From positions 1-64,000 of the forward strand of contig JALHRS010000024.1 in assembly GCA_022841325.1 (NCBI GenBank): a stretch of 64,000 bases of DNA. The letters are read 5' to 3'. The notes beneath the pieces were generated by a model. That model saw nothing but the letters and a program-made list of their open reading frames with translations, had not been told where the DNA came from and did not search any database. Position numbers and translations under genes: made by a program. The DNA is from Lysobacterales bacterium (GTDB lineage: Bacteria; Pseudomonadota; Gammaproteobacteria; Xanthomonadales; SZUA-5). Below, piece by piece: positions 10,460 to 34,713 of the stretch. Each line of letters starts with the position of its first letter. Position 1 is the first letter of the stretch.

Positions 10460-11023
10460 TCAGCGCAGCGATCTTGGCTTGTGGGTGCCAGTACCAAGAC
10501 GGGACATGCGTCGCCAGCGCTCCTGTTCGGCAACGGTCTGCTGCGCCAGCAGTTTCCGCGTGAAACAACGTCGGCTCATCATCGAACTGCCCGTGCGGCG
10601 TTCCTGCCGACAGACCACTCCGCCCTGGTCCAGCCACGCCATCCGCGAATTGAAATCGACAGCCAGGCGCCGCAGCGCAAGCGCAGCTTGGGGGCTGGTC
10701 GCCGCCTCCGCGAGCGCGCGCTGCAGCGCGCCGATCTGCGCCTGAATCCAGTCCTGGTCGTCCGCATCCAGGCGGCGGTAGCGGCCTTCGCCCAAGCGCC
10801 GCTCGACCCGATCGACATAAGTGGCAATGGCCCGGATTTCGACCTGGGAAAGGCTCCCCGGCCGGAATGCCCCAGAAGCCTGACTGGCGGGCAGTTCCGC
10901 CCGCGACGAGCTCTCGAGCGGCGCCCTGACCGGCGATCCCGGATCGGCACAGGCCGCCATCACCGGGGCCAGGGTCAACAGCCAGAGCGCACAAGCATGG
11001 TGACGGCCGAGTTTCCTTGCCAT
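10460..11023 (-). CDS. Secreted Cys-motif protein, paralogue 1 (possible lipoprotein)
   Basis: A 187-residue exported protein I cannot assign to a named family. The N-terminus LWLLTLAPVMAACADP has a plausible lipobox ending in AAC. The body aligns with the products at 11072 and 11836: a helical segment YVDRVERRLGEGRYR, then QDWIQAQIGALQRAL, then the signature GGVVCRQERRTGSSMMSRRC (two Cys separated by 14 residues) and a basic tail. It has AAGGAG 7 bases before the ATG. It starts 48 bases after the stop of paralogue 2 with no dyad of its own, so it is probably co-transcribed with paralogue 2. It is the most diverged of the three. Confidence 0.8.
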   Translation of the reverse strand: MARKLGRHHACALWLLTLAPVMAACADPGSPVRAPLESSSRAELPASQASGAFRPGSLSQVEIRAIATYVDRVERRLGEGRYRRLDADDQDWIQAQIGALQRALAEAATSPQAALALRRLAVDFNSRMAWLDQGGVVCRQERRTGSSMMSRRCFTRKLLAQQTVAEQERWRRMSRLGTGTHKPRSLR

Positions 11024-11071: not shown

Positions 11072-11560
11072 TCAACGATTCAGTGGAATCAGAACCAGGC
11101 CCTGGCCCTTCCGCATCTGCCGCAGGGACTCCTGTGATTTCGAATTGTCTTCAATCTGGCGCTTGCGCGAGAAGCAGCGCTGGGTGGCCATGCGCGTACC
11201 GACCTTGCGCTCCTGCCGGCAAACGATGCCGCCTTCCTCGATGCCGATGATTCCGGTTTCGAATTCGCTGGCCAGTTCGCGCAGTTTCGGCGAGGGGTCG
11301 CGTGCGCTGTCGGCACGGTCCAGTTCCGAGCGCAGGGCGGCGATGACCTGAATCAGCCATTTCTGATCGCGTTGGCTGGCGACGTCATAACGCCCCTTCT
11401 GCAATCGACGATCGACATCTTCCACGTATTGCCGGATCTCGGAGACCGACAGCGAAGACTCGACTCGGACAGCCGAAGTGGCAGAGCGGTCGGCGTGGGC
11501 CGCGGTTGAGATCGCCAAGACGGCGCTCATCAGGGCTACAAACAGCAGTTTCCGAATCAT
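11072..11560 (-). CDS. Secreted Cys-motif protein, paralogue 2
   Basis: A 162-residue periplasmic or secreted protein of unknown function, with signal peptide MIRKLLFVALMSAVLAISTAAHA. It is closely similar to the product at 11836, sharing IRQYVEDVDRRLQKGRYDVA, the DPSPKLRELASEFETGIIG stretch and the two-cysteine motif GGIVCRQERKVGTRMATQRC. ATG at 11560 has AAGGAG upstream; the longer frame to 11593 would overlap the promoter. It has its own promoter with TTGACA and TAGTTT 17 bases apart and a perfect 9-bp-arm dyad over the -10 and spacer, matching that of paralogue 3 and of blaI, which suggests repression by the neighbouring BlaI-type regulator. Confidence 0.85.
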   Translation of the reverse strand: MIRKLLFVALMSAVLAISTAAHADRSATSAVRVESSLSVSEIRQYVEDVDRRLQKGRYDVASQRDQKWLIQVIAALRSELDRADSARDPSPKLRELASEFETGIIGIEEGGIVCRQERKVGTRMATQRCFSRKRQIEDNSKSQESLRQMRKGQGLVLIPLNR

Positions 11561-11592: not shown

Positions 11593-11621
11593 AAACTACG
11601 ACGTGCTTCGTAGTTTGTCAA
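11593..11621 (-). promoter_or_regulatory. Promoter and BlaI-type operator of paralogue 2
   Basis: On the minus strand: -35 TTGACA (11621-11616), 17-base spacer, -10 TAGTTT (11598-11593). The inverted repeat AAACTACGA-N6-TCGTAGTTT (11593-11616) spans spacer and -10 exactly. Its core CTACGA-N6-TCGTAG recurs at 12351-12368 and, with one mismatch, at 12417-12434. The resemblance to known BlaI/MecI operators (TACA/TGTA cores) is partial; assignment to BlaI is inference from position. Confidence 0.75.
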
Positions 11622-11660
11622 CTTGTAGCTAAGCCTTCTTGGACGATTATCGTGAGCGAC

Positions 11661-11678
11661 CTACGGCTATCTTCGTCT
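11661..11678. promoter_or_regulatory. Degenerate second dyad upstream of paralogue 2
   Basis: CTACGG-CTATCT-TCGTCT keeps the N6 spacing and 9 of 12 arm positions of the CTACGA-N6-TCGTAG dyad found at three other sites in this cluster. It lies about 100 bases upstream of the paralogue 2 start. It could be an auxiliary operator or chance. Confidence 0.3.
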
Positions 11679-11835
11679 ATCAGAATCCGACACTGGCGTA
11701 GATCGCGACATGCTCTAGAGCCTGAGGATTCACGGCATCGCTGCCTGTTGCCGCCAGGAATTCCCTGGCGGCAGATTGCAGGGGCTGAAAGGGTCGGAGC
11801 GCAGGCCAGGGCGGCCGGACTGAGCAGGTCCGCGT

Positions 11836-12315
11836 CTACCGGCCGATTGGCACCATCGGCTGACGGTTGAGCTTGCGCAGCTGATCCTGCGACTTGGTGG
11901 TGTCATCGGCCAGCCGCTTGCGGGTGAAGCAGCGCTGCGTGGACATGCGGGTGCCGGTCTTCCGCTCCTGCCGGCAGACGATCCCGCCCTCTTCGATGCC
12001 GATGATGCCGGTTTCGAATTCGCTGGCCAGTTCGCGCAGTTTCGGGCTGGGATCACGCGACACATCGGCCCTGTCCAGCTCGGTACGCAAGGCCGGGATG
12101 ATCTGCGTCAGCCACTTCTGATCGCGCTTGTCGGCTACGTCATAGCGACCCTTCTGGAAGCGCCGATCCACGTCTTCGACATACTCGCGAATCTCGATTA
12201 CCGACTTCGAAGATTCGACCTTGACCGCAGTGGTCGCGGCACGTTCGGCGTGGGCGGTGGTCGAGAGCGCCATCGCGGCGGTCACAAGGGCAACGATCAG
12301 CAGCTTCTGAGTCAT
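11836..12315 (-). CDS. Secreted Cys-motif protein, paralogue 3
   Basis: A 159-residue exported protein of unknown function, with signal peptide MTQKLLIVALVTAAMALSTTAHA. It is the near-twin of the product at 11072: REYVEDVDRRFQKGRYDVAD, DPSPKLRELASEFETGIIG and the motif GGIVCRQERKTGTRMSTQRC, then a basic, Lys/Arg/Gln-rich tail. GGAGCGA precedes the ATG. It is divergent from blaI, and its promoter (TTGACA-17-TAGGTT) is covered by the dyad CTACGA-N6-TCGTAG. The conservation of the two cysteines and of the promoter architecture with paralogue 2 suggests a recent duplication under common control. Confidence 0.85.
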   Translation of the reverse strand: MTQKLLIVALVTAAMALSTTAHAERAATTAVKVESSKSVIEIREYVEDVDRRFQKGRYDVADKRDQKWLTQIIPALRTELDRADVSRDPSPKLRELASEFETGIIGIEEGGIVCRQERKTGTRMSTQRCFTRKRLADDTTKSQDQLRKLNRQPMVPIGR

Positions 12316-12347
12316 GAGTTTCGCTCCGTGGGCAGGTTTCGAGCCGA

Positions 12348-12376
12348 AACCTACGACTGTCTTCGTAGCCTGTCAA
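12348..12376 (-). promoter_or_regulatory. Promoter and BlaI-type operator of paralogue 3
   Basis: On the minus strand: -35 TTGACA (12376-12371), 17-base spacer, -10 TAGGTT (12353-12348). The perfect dyad CTACGA-CTGTCT-TCGTAG lies at 12351-12368, overlapping the -10 and filling the spacer, in the same register as at paralogue 2. The -35 is also part of a perfect palindrome GTCAATCC-T-GGATTGAC at 12372-12388. Confidence 0.75.
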
Positions 12377-12394
12377 TCCTGGATTGACGCGACG

Positions 12395-12434
12395 TTTCCA
12401 ATTGTTGAGAAAGTCGCTACGATAGTCGTCGTGG
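12395..12434 (+). promoter_or_regulatory. blaI promoter with autoregulatory dyad
   Basis: On the plus strand a candidate promoter TTTCCA (12395-12400), 17 bases, TACGAT (12418-12423). The dyad CTACGA-N6-TCGTGG (12417-12434, one mismatch from the other two) overlaps the -10 and ends 22 bases before the GTG start. BlaI/MecI repressors normally autoregulate, which fits. Confidence 0.6.
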
Positions 12435-12456: not shown

Positions 12457-12852
12457 GTGAGCCGAGCCGAATTGCAGAAGCCTACCGAAGCCGAAATCGA
12501 GTTGCTCAAGGTCATGTGGGACCGCGGCCCCTGCACGGTCCGCGATGTCCACGAAGCGCTGCAGAGCAAGACTCGCAAGACGGCCTACACGACCACCCTG
12601 AAGTTGCTGCAGGTGATGTATGGCAAGGGTCTGGTGATCCGCGACGAATCGCAGCGGGCGCACCGTTTTGCGGCAGCGGTCTCCAGGGAAGCCACCGAGC
12701 GCGCCTTTGTCGGCGCCCTGATCTCCAAGCTCTTTGACGGCTCGGCCACGCGCCTGGTGTTGCAGGCGCTGGGCAACGACGCCCGCGCCAATGACAGCGA
12801 ACTGGCGGAGATCCGGGAGCTGCTGAAGAACATCGAAAGCGAGCGTGAGTGA
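12457..12852 (+). CDS. blaI: BlaI/MecI/CopY-type transcriptional repressor
   Basis: A 131-residue winged-helix repressor of the BlaI/MecI family: LQKPTEAEIELLKVMWDRGPCTVRDV, YTTTLKLLQVMYGKGLV and the C-terminal dimerisation half ending in ELAEIRELLKNIESERE. In the classical system it is cleaved or released when the partner BlaR1 senses an inducer. The start is GTG at 12457 with AAGGA 8 bases upstream. The stop overlaps the next gene (TGATG), so translation is coupled to the BlaR1-like partner. Matching dyads upstream of this gene and of two divergent secreted genes define a probable small regulon. Note that no beta-lactamase or PBP gene is in the cluster. Confidence 0.92.
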   Translation: MSRAELQKPTEAEIELLKVMWDRGPCTVRDVHEALQSKTRKTAYTTTLKLLQVMYGKGLVIRDESQRAHRFAAAVSREATERAFVGALISKLFDGSATRLVLQALGNDARANDSELAEIRELLKNIESERE

Positions 12853-14561
12853 TGGACGCCCTGTCGGTTGCCATCAATGCCATCGGCTGGACTCTGATTC
12901 ACTCTCTTTGGCTGGGGGCGCTGGCGGCGGCGGCCTATGCAGTGCCGGCGGCACGTTTGCGCAATCAGGCACCGCAGCTGGCCTATGGCTGGGGCCTGGT
13001 CTGTCTGCTGATGCTGGTGTTGTCGCTGGGTCTGATCTTCGCCAATGAATTCGATCGGCTCAGGGACAGCGCCGATAGCCAGGCCATTGCCCGGGCCTAC
13101 GCGGCATTGCCGGTCGAAGCCAGCGCGGTGAGCAGCATCGAGGTGACGCCGGCACCGTCGAGCTTTGCCCGCGGCATCGATCAGATCCTGCCGCTGCTGG
13201 TGCTGGCCTGGGCGCTGGCGGTGGCGGTGATCGGGGCCGGACTGGTGCGTTCGCAACTGGCACTGCGACGCCTGGTGACGGCCGGTGTTGCGCTGCCGAA
13301 TCTGGCACAGCCGGTGATCGAGCTGGCGCAGCGCTTCGGGGTCAACCGGCCGATCGCGGTGGTTTCCTCGGCGCTGGCCCGGGCGCCCTTTGTGATCGGT
13401 CATTTTGCGCCGGTGATCGTATTGCCGCTGACGGTAGCCACCGGCATGCCCTGGCCGCAACTGCGGCTGATCCTGGCCCACGAGATCGCCCATCTGCGGC
13501 GCGCGGACTATCTGATCAACTGGCTGCAGATCGCGCTGGAAGTGCTGCTGTTCTTCCATCCCGCGGTGCGCTGGTTGAGTGAGGAACTGCGACGGCTGCG
13601 CGAAGCCTGTTGCGACGATATGGTGGTCGCATTCGCGGGTGGCCGCGGCGATTACACCCGGGCGCTGCTGGCGCTGGAGGAATCCCGTCACGACGCGCCG
13701 CTGCTGGCGCCGAGCGCAGTCGCCGGGGGTTTGCTCTGGCGCGTGCAGCGCATAGCCGGGCGCGCGCCGGATCACCGTGGCTCCCTGCAGAAGATCGTCC
13801 TGCCTGCCGTCATCGCCAGCATGCTGGTGCTGATCCTGGCCGGCGGCGTGCAGATTCGACCGGGCACCAGTCCGCGCGATCTGGTGCTGCCGCAGGCTAC
13901 GCTGCTGATGCCGTCCCTGCTGCGGCGCGAAGCAGCGCCGACGCGTTTTGCCTGGGATGTGCAACTGCCACCGCTCCATGACGCCGAGTACGCAGCCGAG
14001 GTGCAGCCGCCGGTGGCTGCGGTCGTGACCCCGATCCAGATCGAGCCGATGAGCCCCTCGCCGGCAAGGCTTCCGAGCACCGAGTACCGTCCCACCCTGG
14101 TGGCCCGCGTGCAGCCGCCGACGGTGCCGGTCGCGCCGGAGATTCAGTCGGCACCCGCAGATCCGGTCCAGCCCCTGCATGCGGTGCGCCCGGTCTACCC
14201 GCGGGATCAGCGGCTGGCCGACGGTCCGCTGGCGGTAGAGCTGGAATTCGGCCTGACCGCGGACGGTGCGGTCCGCGATATCCGGGTCGCGAATGCACCC
14301 GGCGGAGCCGAGCCTTTTGTCGCGGCTGCGACCCAGGCGCTGTCAAAATGGGTTTACCCCGGCAATGCGGCTGCTGGCGGCGAGCGCCTGCGCCATCGCT
14401 TCGAGTTTCGCGATCTGGTCGCCGGTGAAAGCCACGGCGAATGCACCATGCTGACCGCCAGTCGCTTCTGTCTGGTGGATGCGCGCCCAGGTCGGCGAGA
14501 TTCGCTGCTGCCCGGCGAGCGCTGCAAGCCGACCACTGGCTCGCGCCTGTGCCGTCGCTGA
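12852..14561 (+). CDS. BlaR1-like M56 metallopeptidase with C-terminal TonB domain
   Basis: Integral membrane sensor-protease of 569 residues. The first 330 residues are a polytopic M56 peptidase with zinc motif HEIAH (210-214) and the distal glutamate in REACCDD (E251). After a transmembrane helix (KIVLPAVIASMLVLILAGG) a proline-rich periplasmic linker leads to a TonB C-terminal domain (about 440-505; RPVYPRDQRLADGPLAVELE ... KWVYPG). There is no penicillin-binding sensor domain, so the inducer is unlikely to be sensed as in Staphylococcus BlaR1. The last 35 residues hold four cysteines and end ERCKPTTGSRLCRR, echoing the TGSR/TGTR two-cysteine motif of the three divergent secreted proteins. 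ATG at 12852 is preferred over GTG 12849. Confidence 0.88.
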   Translation: MDALSVAINAIGWTLIHSLWLGALAAAAYAVPAARLRNQAPQLAYGWGLVCLLMLVLSLGLIFANEFDRLRDSADSQAIARAYAALPVEASAVSSIEVTPAPSSFARGIDQILPLLVLAWALAVAVIGAGLVRSQLALRRLVTAGVALPNLAQPVIELAQRFGVNRPIAVVSSALARAPFVIGHFAPVIVLPLTVATGMPWPQLRLILAHEIAHLRRADYLINWLQIALEVLLFFHPAVRWLSEELRRLREACCDDMVVAFAGGRGDYTRALLALEESRHDAPLLAPSAVAGGLLWRVQRIAGRAPDHRGSLQKIVLPAVIASMLVLILAGGVQIRPGTSPRDLVLPQATLLMPSLLRREAAPTRFAWDVQLPPLHDAEYAAEVQPPVAAVVTPIQIEPMSPSPARLPSTEYRPTLVARVQPPTVPVAPEIQSAPADPVQPLHAVRPVYPRDQRLADGPLAVELEFGLTADGAVRDIRVANAPGGAEPFVAAATQALSKWVYPGNAAAGGERLRHRFEFRDLVAGESHGECTMLTASRFCLVDARPGRRDSLLPGERCKPTTGSRLCRR

Positions 14562-32686: not shown

Positions 32687-32893
32687 GTAGGGCGGAACCC
32701 GCGCAGCGGATTCCGCCAATGTGTAGCCGCTGTTCCCGAGCTTGCAGCTACGCGTGCGACATGGTCGGTGATGGCGGAATCAGCAGTCGCAGTGGCGGAC
32801 CCCGGCGCGGTAATTTCGGCGGAATCCGCTATCGCGGCTGCGGACCCCGTCGCGGTTGTTTCGGCGGAATCCGCTGCGCGGGTTCCGCCCTAC
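32687..32893. repeat. 31-bp perfect inverted repeat within the ABC export operon
   Basis: The bases at 32687-32717 (starting GTAGGGCGGAACCCGCG) and 32863-32893 are exact reverse complements, 145 bases apart. Between them the motif GGCGGAATCCGCT occurs again at about 32818 and 32861. On the minus strand the block lies between the membrane-fusion stop and the ATPase start, so it would be transcribed within an operon. Confidence 0.9.
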
Positions 32894-32894
32894 T

Positions 32895-34130
32895 TTAGGG
32901 CTCCTTGTTGACCTGGGTGCCGTCGGTGAGGTCTGCGGGCGGATCGAGTATGACGCTCTGACCGGCCGTCAGACCGGCGGTGATATTGCGAAAATCGGCA
33001 ATGGTGGCGCCGGCGCTGACCTCGCGCAGGCTCGCGCGTTCGTTCTCGACGACAAAGACCCGGGCCTTGCCCTCGGCTTCGATCACCGCTGACCTCGGCA
33101 CCAGCACGCCACTCAGCTGTGCCTTCTTCGGCTCATCGGCCGTGGCTCGCGATTCGAGGAAGCGCACGCGCACACCCATCTCCGGAACGATGCGCGGATC
33201 CTTCACGCCGAGGCTGACGCGGACACGGACCGTGGCCTTGGTGCGATCGGCCGCCGGAATCACGGCAATCACGTCGCCGGGAATCTTCCAGTCCGGATAG
33301 GCATTCAGCATGGCCTCGATCGGCATGCCCTGCTGCACGCGACCAATGAAGGCCTCGTTGACATCGACTTCAACCTCCAGCGAATCCATGTCGACCACGG
33401 TGCCGATGCCGGTGCGGGTGAAGCCGCCACCAGCGCTGATCGGCGAGATCATCTCGCCGGGCTGCGCGGCCTTGGCGATGATCACGCCGGCAAAGGGCGC
33501 GCGCACCACGGTGTCGTCCATCGATACCTGCGACAGCGCCAGAGCTTCCTCGGCGACCTTGATCTGCCGGCGCTGACTGGCCAGTCGCGCGCTCAGGGTC
33601 TCGGCCGCGGCGCGGGCGGCATCGAGCTGCGCCGCGGTACCCAGCTTGCGGGCGTAGATTTCCTGCTGGCGCTGATAGTCGGCCTGGGCCTGGCGCAGAC
33701 TGGCCTCGATCTCGGCCAGCTGCGAGCGGGCGCCGGCCAGCTGCGCCTGTGACAGCGCCAGCTGGGCGCTCTGCTGGGTGTCGTCCAGTGTCGCCAGGAT
33801 CTGCCCTTCCTCGACCTGCATGCCCTCCTCGATGAGCACGCTCAGCACCTTGCCGGTGACCTTCGAAGACACCGTGGCCTGACGCCGCGCGACCACATAA
33901 CCGGAGGCATCCAGCACCGAGCTCGACACCGGGGCAGAAGCGGCGGGTTGCACCAGAGCAGTCTTGACGCTGATCGCGGAGGGCGCGCGGCCCAGGAACC
34001 ACCAGGCACCGGCACCGACGGCGATCACCAGCAGCAACACCCACCACGGCACGCCGCCGCGACGCGGCGGCGCGTCGTCGCGTGCGCTGCGGTCGATTTG
34101 CAATTGGCCCAGCAGATCAGTCTGACTCAT
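32895..34130 (-). CDS. Membrane-fusion (HlyD/RND-adaptor) protein
   Basis: Periplasmic adaptor of 411 residues, anchored by an N-terminal helix (WWVLLLVIAVGAGAWWFLG, about 29-47). The biotinyl-lipoyl half-motifs are in ATVSSKVTGKVLSVLIEEGMQ and DTVVRAPFAGVIIAKAAQPG, separated by a long coiled-coil hairpin (about 115-200, Gln/Ala/Arg-rich). It links the inner-membrane ABC complex encoded downstream to an outer-membrane channel; no TolC gene is in the window. Confidence 0.92.
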   Translation of the reverse strand: MSQTDLLGQLQIDRSARDDAPPRRGGVPWWVLLLVIAVGAGAWWFLGRAPSAISVKTALVQPAASAPVSSSVLDASGYVVARRQATVSSKVTGKVLSVLIEEGMQVEEGQILATLDDTQQSAQLALSQAQLAGARSQLAEIEASLRQAQADYQRQQEIYARKLGTAAQLDAARAAAETLSARLASQRRQIKVAEEALALSQVSMDDTVVRAPFAGVIIAKAAQPGEMISPISAGGGFTRTGIGTVVDMDSLEVEVDVNEAFIGRVQQGMPIEAMLNAYPDWKIPGDVIAVIPAADRTKATVRVRVSLGVKDPRIVPEMGVRVRFLESRATADEPKKAQLSGVLVPRSAVIEAEGKARVFVVENERASLREVSAGATIADFRNITAGLTAGQSVILDPPADLTDGTQVNKEP

Positions 34131-34713
34131 GAATGTGTTCGGTCACCCTTGGATGCATACATGCTCGCACAGCTGGGCGTCGCGGGTTTGCACTCGACGA
34201 CTCGCCAGCCTGTGATCAAGGCTCCAGCAAATCACGCTCAAGCATTAGTGACGATCGTCACCTCGGGCAGCGTGACTGATGGCAGGGTGGGGTGCGCTGA
34301 TGGGTCGCGCCGCAAGGGCGCACCTACAGGAGGGCGGGGCTTCGTGTGGGGGGCGCCCTTTCGGCAGTCGAGCACACGCTCACAGCGGGAGCAGCTGCTG
34401 CTGGAATCGCCGGTCGCGGATGGCGACAGACGCGGCGGCCGTCGACGCCAAACGTTGCAATCGGTAACGCCAATGGCGGGGCATGCGAAAAGCATTCAAC
34501 GCGGAGAACGCGGAGTGGCGCGGAGGACGCAGAGAGAAGCACATCTTGGATTGCTTTGCCTTTTCTCTGCGTCCCTCTGCGTTTCCTCTGCGTTCTCTGC
34601 GATCAGCTTGTGCCCTCACCCAGCGACAGTTTTCGGTTCTCGCGATCAGTCGCGACGCAAGCTTGCTGCTACAAGGCTAGACTCGCGGCCCTGCCAAGGA
34701 CACCCGCCCGCCG
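34131..34713. other. Non-coding gap with a perfect palindrome and a GCGGAG inverted repeat
   Basis: No gene is supported in 583 bases. Positions 34248-34261 are the perfect palindrome GTGACGATCGTCAC, 118 bases upstream of the membrane-fusion start and a candidate regulator site. Positions 34497-34545 (AACGCGGAGAACGCGGAG ... GACGCAGAGAGAAG) and 34558-34602 (CTTTTCTCTGCGTCCC ... CTCTGCGTTCTCTGCG) form a long imperfect inverted repeat similar to the one at 48350-48658. The rest shows no clear structure. Confidence 0.6.

Follow-up and report, generated by a model that had tools for sequence, protein, structure and literature searches.

The window analysed here, a stretch of 64,000 nucleotides of contig JALHRS010000024.1 from a Lysobacterales bacterium (assembly GCA_022841325.1), carries a repressor-sensor gene pair and, on the opposite strand, three genes for proteins with a paired-cysteine motif (Cys proteins). 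The cluster comprises the following genes:

10460-11023, minus strand: Cys protein 3, a 187-aa divergent paralogue (about 36-43% identical)
11072-11560, minus strand: Cys protein 2, a 162-aa paralogue of Cys protein 1 (72-74% identical)
11836-12315, minus strand: Cys protein 1, a 159-aa exported protein in which C114 and C129 bracket a predicted hairpin (C-x6-G-x7-C)
12457-12852, plus strand: blaI, encoding a 131-aa repressor of the BlaI/MecI/CopY family (PF03965, E = 4e-23)
12852-14561, plus strand: blaR1-like gene, encoding an M56 membrane metallopeptidase (PF05569, E = 1e-31) whose C-terminus is a TonB-like domain instead of a PBP sensor

The flanks are formed by dprA, a LysM protein gene, def, fmt, rsmB and a histidine kinase gene; as the initial annotation had stated, neither a beta-lactamase nor a PBP adjoins the cluster. 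It had further described two of the exported proteins as near-identical, which does not hold for Cys proteins 1 and 2 at the identity given above; they are paralogues. Cys protein 3 lacks its own dyad; 48 bp separate its gene from that of Cys protein 2 upstream, and read-through is possible. In contrast to Cys proteins 1 and 2, it may be a lipoprotein, having a lipobox-like VMAAC sequence. The blaI product contains a Penicillinase_R winged-helix domain (PF03965, 82 bits, cutoff 22.6) and is related to BlaI and MecI proteins of solved structure; its match to TIGR02698 (CopY/CopR) stayed below cutoff. The ATG of the blaR1-like gene overlaps the blaI stop codon, and this overlapping pair, with a conserved dyad upstream of blaI, is probably autoregulated.

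Three dyads were assigned as candidate operators, none with a strand:

11593-11616: operator 1, AAACTACGA-CGTGCT-TCGTAGTTT, located in the Cys protein 2 promoter, both 9-bp arms perfect
12351-12368: operator 2, CTACGA-CTGTCT-TCGTAG, perfect, located in the Cys protein 1 promoter
12417-12434: operator 3, CTACGA-TAGTCG-TCGTGG, one mismatch, 22 bp upstream of the blaI start

A check of the sequence confirmed all three at the positions first proposed, two being perfect and the third having a single mismatch. The core CTACGA-N6-TCGTAG of operator 1 lies at 11596-11613 without mismatch, and its arms extend 3 bp further on each side. Allowing up to two mismatches, we counted four matches in the window versus 0.81 expected by chance, and the perfect form occurs twice in the 6.12 Mb genome, both times in the window, where about 0.2 copies would be expected from base composition; however, operators 1 and 2 could descend from one copy and are then not fully independent, since their exported proteins are 72-74% identical. 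Both perfect dyads directly follow a TTGACA and keep one register, each with 35 bp between it and the start codon of its gene. The promoters proposed around them were borne out in part: the -35 elements are perfect TTGACA with a 17-bp spacer, but the -10 elements TAGTTT and TAGGTT are weak, with three of six positions matching TATAAT. A consensus scan for sigma-70 promoters between 11 and 12.7 kb returned none at threshold.

A search for the dyad in related genomes had been set as a test beforehand, and it revealed conservation upstream of both blaI and unlinked secreted-protein orthologues. Within 1.2 kb upstream of orthologous blaI genes across the order, TACGA-N6-TCGTA (at least 9/10) was present in 27 of 30 loci, compared to a mean of 0.27 (maximum 2) in dinucleotide shuffles. 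This applies to a spacer of six only, as spacers of 0-5 and 7-12 gave 0-2 of the 30 loci. The two genomes G005 and G003 have kept the window's dyad pair, one on the divergent side (the equivalent of operator 2) and one upstream of blaI. In a collection of named genomes, which shares some genomes with the order-wide set, the dyad was found in 18 of 20 gammaproteobacterial/Lysobacterales loci, and outside the Lysobacterales it precedes blaI in 60 of 60 related loci (L188-L265; mostly Bacteroidota, together with Planctomycetes, Acidobacteria and Archangium). As the species are related, these counts overstate independence, and the p-values given below are nominal. In the non-Lysobacterales loci, the dyad is often present in two copies 20-23 bp apart. 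That the dyads are chance or terminator palindromes, unbound by BlaI, would fit the possible duplication of one of the three window copies, but it is hard to reconcile with an order-wide and cross-phylum conservation at a fixed spacer and only together with BlaI, nor did a terminator scan between 11 and 12.7 kb call any; we regard this explanation as extremely improbable.

The published operator box of the BlaI/MecI/CopY family is TACANNTGTA (PMC7253601), which did not occur in the 260 bp preceding each of the related blaI loci listed. The locus resembles the staphylococcal and Bacillus BlaI-BlaR1 and MecI-MecR1 systems in that a Penicillinase_R repressor adjoins an M56 membrane metallopeptidase, with dyad operators over the promoter and probable autoregulation. 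It differs from them in its operator (TACGA-N6-TCGTA instead of TACANNTGTA), in its sensor, which has a TonB-like periplasmic domain and a Cys tail instead of a PBP-like domain, and in its outputs, which are uncharacterised secreted proteins and not a beta-lactamase or PBP2a. The copper repressors CopY/CopR belong to the same winged-helix family as the window's BlaI; CopY is, however, regulated by metal and not by a protease, and its operator is RNYKACANNYGTMRNY (PMC7253601). A second pair in the same genome, on contig C69 (L010/L161), likewise combines BlaI with an M56 protein that has a TonB-like C-terminus, but TTACNCATGTAA-type sites lie upstream of its blaI. This pair is a useful internal control. 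As TACGA-N6-TCGTA is kept with the window's type of BlaI and the paralogue has TTACNCATGTAA-type sites, the former appears to represent a distinct operator class of one BlaI subfamily. The BlaI-M56 pairs of Chitinophagaceae, Planctomycetes, Acidobacteria and Archangium share this operator and have a BlaI about 50% identical, whereas their sensor C-termini have no Cys/TGSR tail.

Regarding the Cys proteins, neither Pfam nor NCBIfam contained a matching model, and the PDB gave no match by sequence or fold (best Foldseek E-value 2.2). AlphaFold2 predicted alpha-helices and a beta-hairpin between the two cysteines of Cys protein 1 (pLDDT 89.6), which places the following motif:

11929-11976, minus strand: C-x6-G-x7-C hairpin motif of Cys protein 1, CRQERKTGTRMSTQRC, with predicted strands 112-118 and 125-131

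C114, G121 and C129 were invariant in an alignment of 36 homologues. A motif scan further revealed that the window's Cys proteins are part of a much larger secreted family in the order, present in 215 of 399 genomes by profile search. The family and this type of BlaI occur together in 101 genomes (odds ratio 5.2, nominal p = 3e-12). Another 114 genomes contain the family without this BlaI, so the Cys proteins do not require this regulator. Three BlaI-less genomes from the same taxonomic family as the window (G008, G007 and G004) have six to seven Cys-family matches each, an expansion without this regulator. G004 also contains a perfect dyad, which lies between porin-like and phosphate-binding-type genes; this genome has no BlaI of this type, and we treated the dyad as chance.

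The dyad itself separates genomes with and without the repressor. Within about 360 bp upstream, it was present at 14 of 20 Cys genes in BlaI-bearing genomes versus 0 of 20 in BlaI-less genomes (p = 3e-6, nominal because the species are related). In the four genomes of family f1 with a close Cys-gene homologue, identified with the window protein as query, perfect TACGA-N6-TCGTA occurs nine times altogether, each time at a Cys, blaI or kelch promoter. Several genera have a dyad-preceded Cys gene immediately upstream of blaI-blaR1, and in G002, a draft of 77% completeness, a Cys gene with two dyads has no blaI near it. G003 has an unlinked Cys gene without a good dyad, and no dyad was found upstream of the tested Cys gene in five BlaI-bearing genomes of family f2 (G009, G221, G266, G120 and G248; L316-L320), where regulation may have been rewired.

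That the output consists of secreted proteins, as initially proposed, is supported by this conservation; the regulon is larger than proposed, however, and an unlinked target had been missed:

G000:C18:32765-34579 (own genome): secreted Kelch-propeller protein, unlinked, with a dyad from 32716 (span 32716-34579, corresponding to L005:4717-6583)

This dyad and operator 3 have 16 nt in common, CTACGATAGTCGTCGT. Perfect dyads in the own genome were found at Cys and Kelch genes only, and a perfect dyad lies close upstream of the kelch orthologue in 14 BlaI-bearing genomes (G000, G005, G003, G371, G324, G384, G328, G374, G031, G090, G118, G027, G021 and G030). It was not found at kelch in three genomes without a BlaI match (G022, G170 and G111). 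Two orthologues are exceptions, the dyad being farther away in G113 and degenerate in G187. Other secreted propellers are probably also members of the regulon. Dyads precede secreted propellers resembling GSDH-type sugar dehydrogenases (PF07995) in G057, G031 and G118 (L141, L144, L158 and L159), and a perfect dyad lies upstream of a sortilin/BNR-like propeller in G324 (L147). Of the TCGTT-variant dyads in the own genome, one is non-specific and one marks a plausible extra target, as it is located at G000:C51:1627-1642 (L183), just upstream of a sortilin/BNR-like secreted propeller.

These propellers raise the question of extracellular sugar or nutrient sensing, in which Kelch and GSDH propellers would act on sugars and the TonB-like domain would report TonB-dependent uptake. 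The Kelch protein weakly resembles YjhT/NanM mutarotases, the GSDH proteins of three genomes are preceded by dyads, and the sensor matches the TonB C-terminal domain. However, the Cys proteins, the most widespread output, have no sugar-related homology, and the GSDH targets are confined to those three genomes, with none shown in the own genome. We therefore judge this explanation unlikely, if the least unlikely of the rivals.

The sensor half of the pair combines an M56 protease core with a TonB-like C-terminus. PF05569 matched with 110 bits, HExxH is invariant, and a profile search aligned the core to BlaR1 structures 8exs (over 79-349) and 8exp. The C-terminus aligned to TonB C-terminal domains (profile A3, E-values down to 3e-23); PF03544 (TonB_C) scored above cutoff in the G005 sensor and below cutoff in the window sensor. 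In the AlphaFold2 model, the helices and the protease are confident, a TonB-like domain lies at about 440-520 and the tail from residue 523 is of low confidence. Neither domain nor profile search detected a PBP-like or transpeptidase sensor domain. An ordinary response to beta-lactams or cell-wall damage, in which either beta-lactams or pieces of the cell wall would be sensed by the BlaR1-like protein and the secreted proteins would help to protect the envelope, draws on the relatedness of the repressor to BlaI and of the protease core to BlaR1. Binding of beta-lactams is unlikely, however, as a TonB-like domain and a Cys tail stand where the PBP domain would be, and no beta-lactamase or PBP gene was found nearby or at the perfect dyads inspected; we consider such a response improbable.

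The tail itself contains a further motif:

14523-14552, plus strand: sensor tail motif CKPTTGSRLC; C558 and G563 are invariant in 26 sensors

Of the 34 sensors from the order, 33 have a Cys-bracketed TGSR-like motif of this kind in their C-terminal tail, examples being CVMVTGSRIC, CLPLTGTRIC and CIQGNTGSRLNDKKLC. It was found neither in the operator-sharing sensors from other phyla nor in the contig C69 paralogue. In the secreted outputs the motif is C-x6-G-x7-C, its turn being formed by TG[ST]R, GSN or GSH, and most sensor tails have the shorter form C-x4-G-x3-C; a longer form is present in a few sensors (L171, L178 and L179; f9 and f10). Because of the shorter spacing in most tails, the resemblance could be convergent. 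The co-restriction of both suggests that sensor tail and secreted outputs are functionally linked, and mimicry, a shared partner or a shared step of processing could account for this link. Alternatively, the Cys hairpin could be a redox or metal sensor or buffer, with tail and secreted proteins registering periplasmic disulfide or metal stress. Two conserved cysteines in sensor tails as well as outputs fit this explanation, as does the CopY branch, which answers copper through cysteines (PMC7253601). On the other hand, the invariant residues of the outputs are two cysteines and one glycine, which leaves few metal ligands, and no redox or metal genes were found in the regulon. We accordingly give this explanation little weight.

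Taken from the sequence data, it is highly probable that a BlaI-type repressor, a TACGA-N6-TCGTA operator and a secreted-protein regulon form an autoregulated switch with an output other than resistance. The basis of this model is the anatomy of the locus, its conservation, the co-occurrence of its parts and the absence of the dyad in BlaI-less genomes. Judging from conservation, a dimer of the BlaI-type protein would bind TACGA-N6-TCGTA sites, which overlap the promoter hexamers or lie between them, and repress blaI-blaR1, the adjacent Cys-hairpin proteins and the unlinked Kelch protein, and in some genomes further secreted propellers. By homology, the BlaR1-like protein would receive a periplasmic signal through its TonB-like domain and its C-terminal Cys tail, whereupon its HExxH metallopeptidase would be activated, BlaI inactivated and the set induced. 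The most speculative step concerns the tail and the induced proteins, which may engage the same extracytoplasmic partner or ligand. The circuit would then be self-referential: the disulfide-capable TGSR tail would mimic the output hairpin, and the induced Cys proteins would compete with the sensor for that one partner and close a feedback loop, which we put forward as a tentative idea, more doubtful than probable.

BlaI/M56 pairs occur in many bacteria without a link to beta-lactam resistance. We found no description of the operator, the regulon or an M56-TonB-Cys-tail sensor in the open-access literature searched, which is weak evidence of novelty. A distinct operator, defined outputs and a motif common to sensor and outputs make the question of what BlaI/M56 systems sense directly testable. 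As the operator recurs in several phyla, the motif could be used to map the regulons of many such systems from sequence alone. In the present case, a BlaI-BlaR1 relative appears to control secreted proteins and not antibiotic resistance, and a sensor half that shares a Cys motif with the proteins it switches on suggests a new sensing circuit that can be tested. If true, an unrecognised secreted family and a distinct cross-phylum class of BlaI operators would together define a signalling system.
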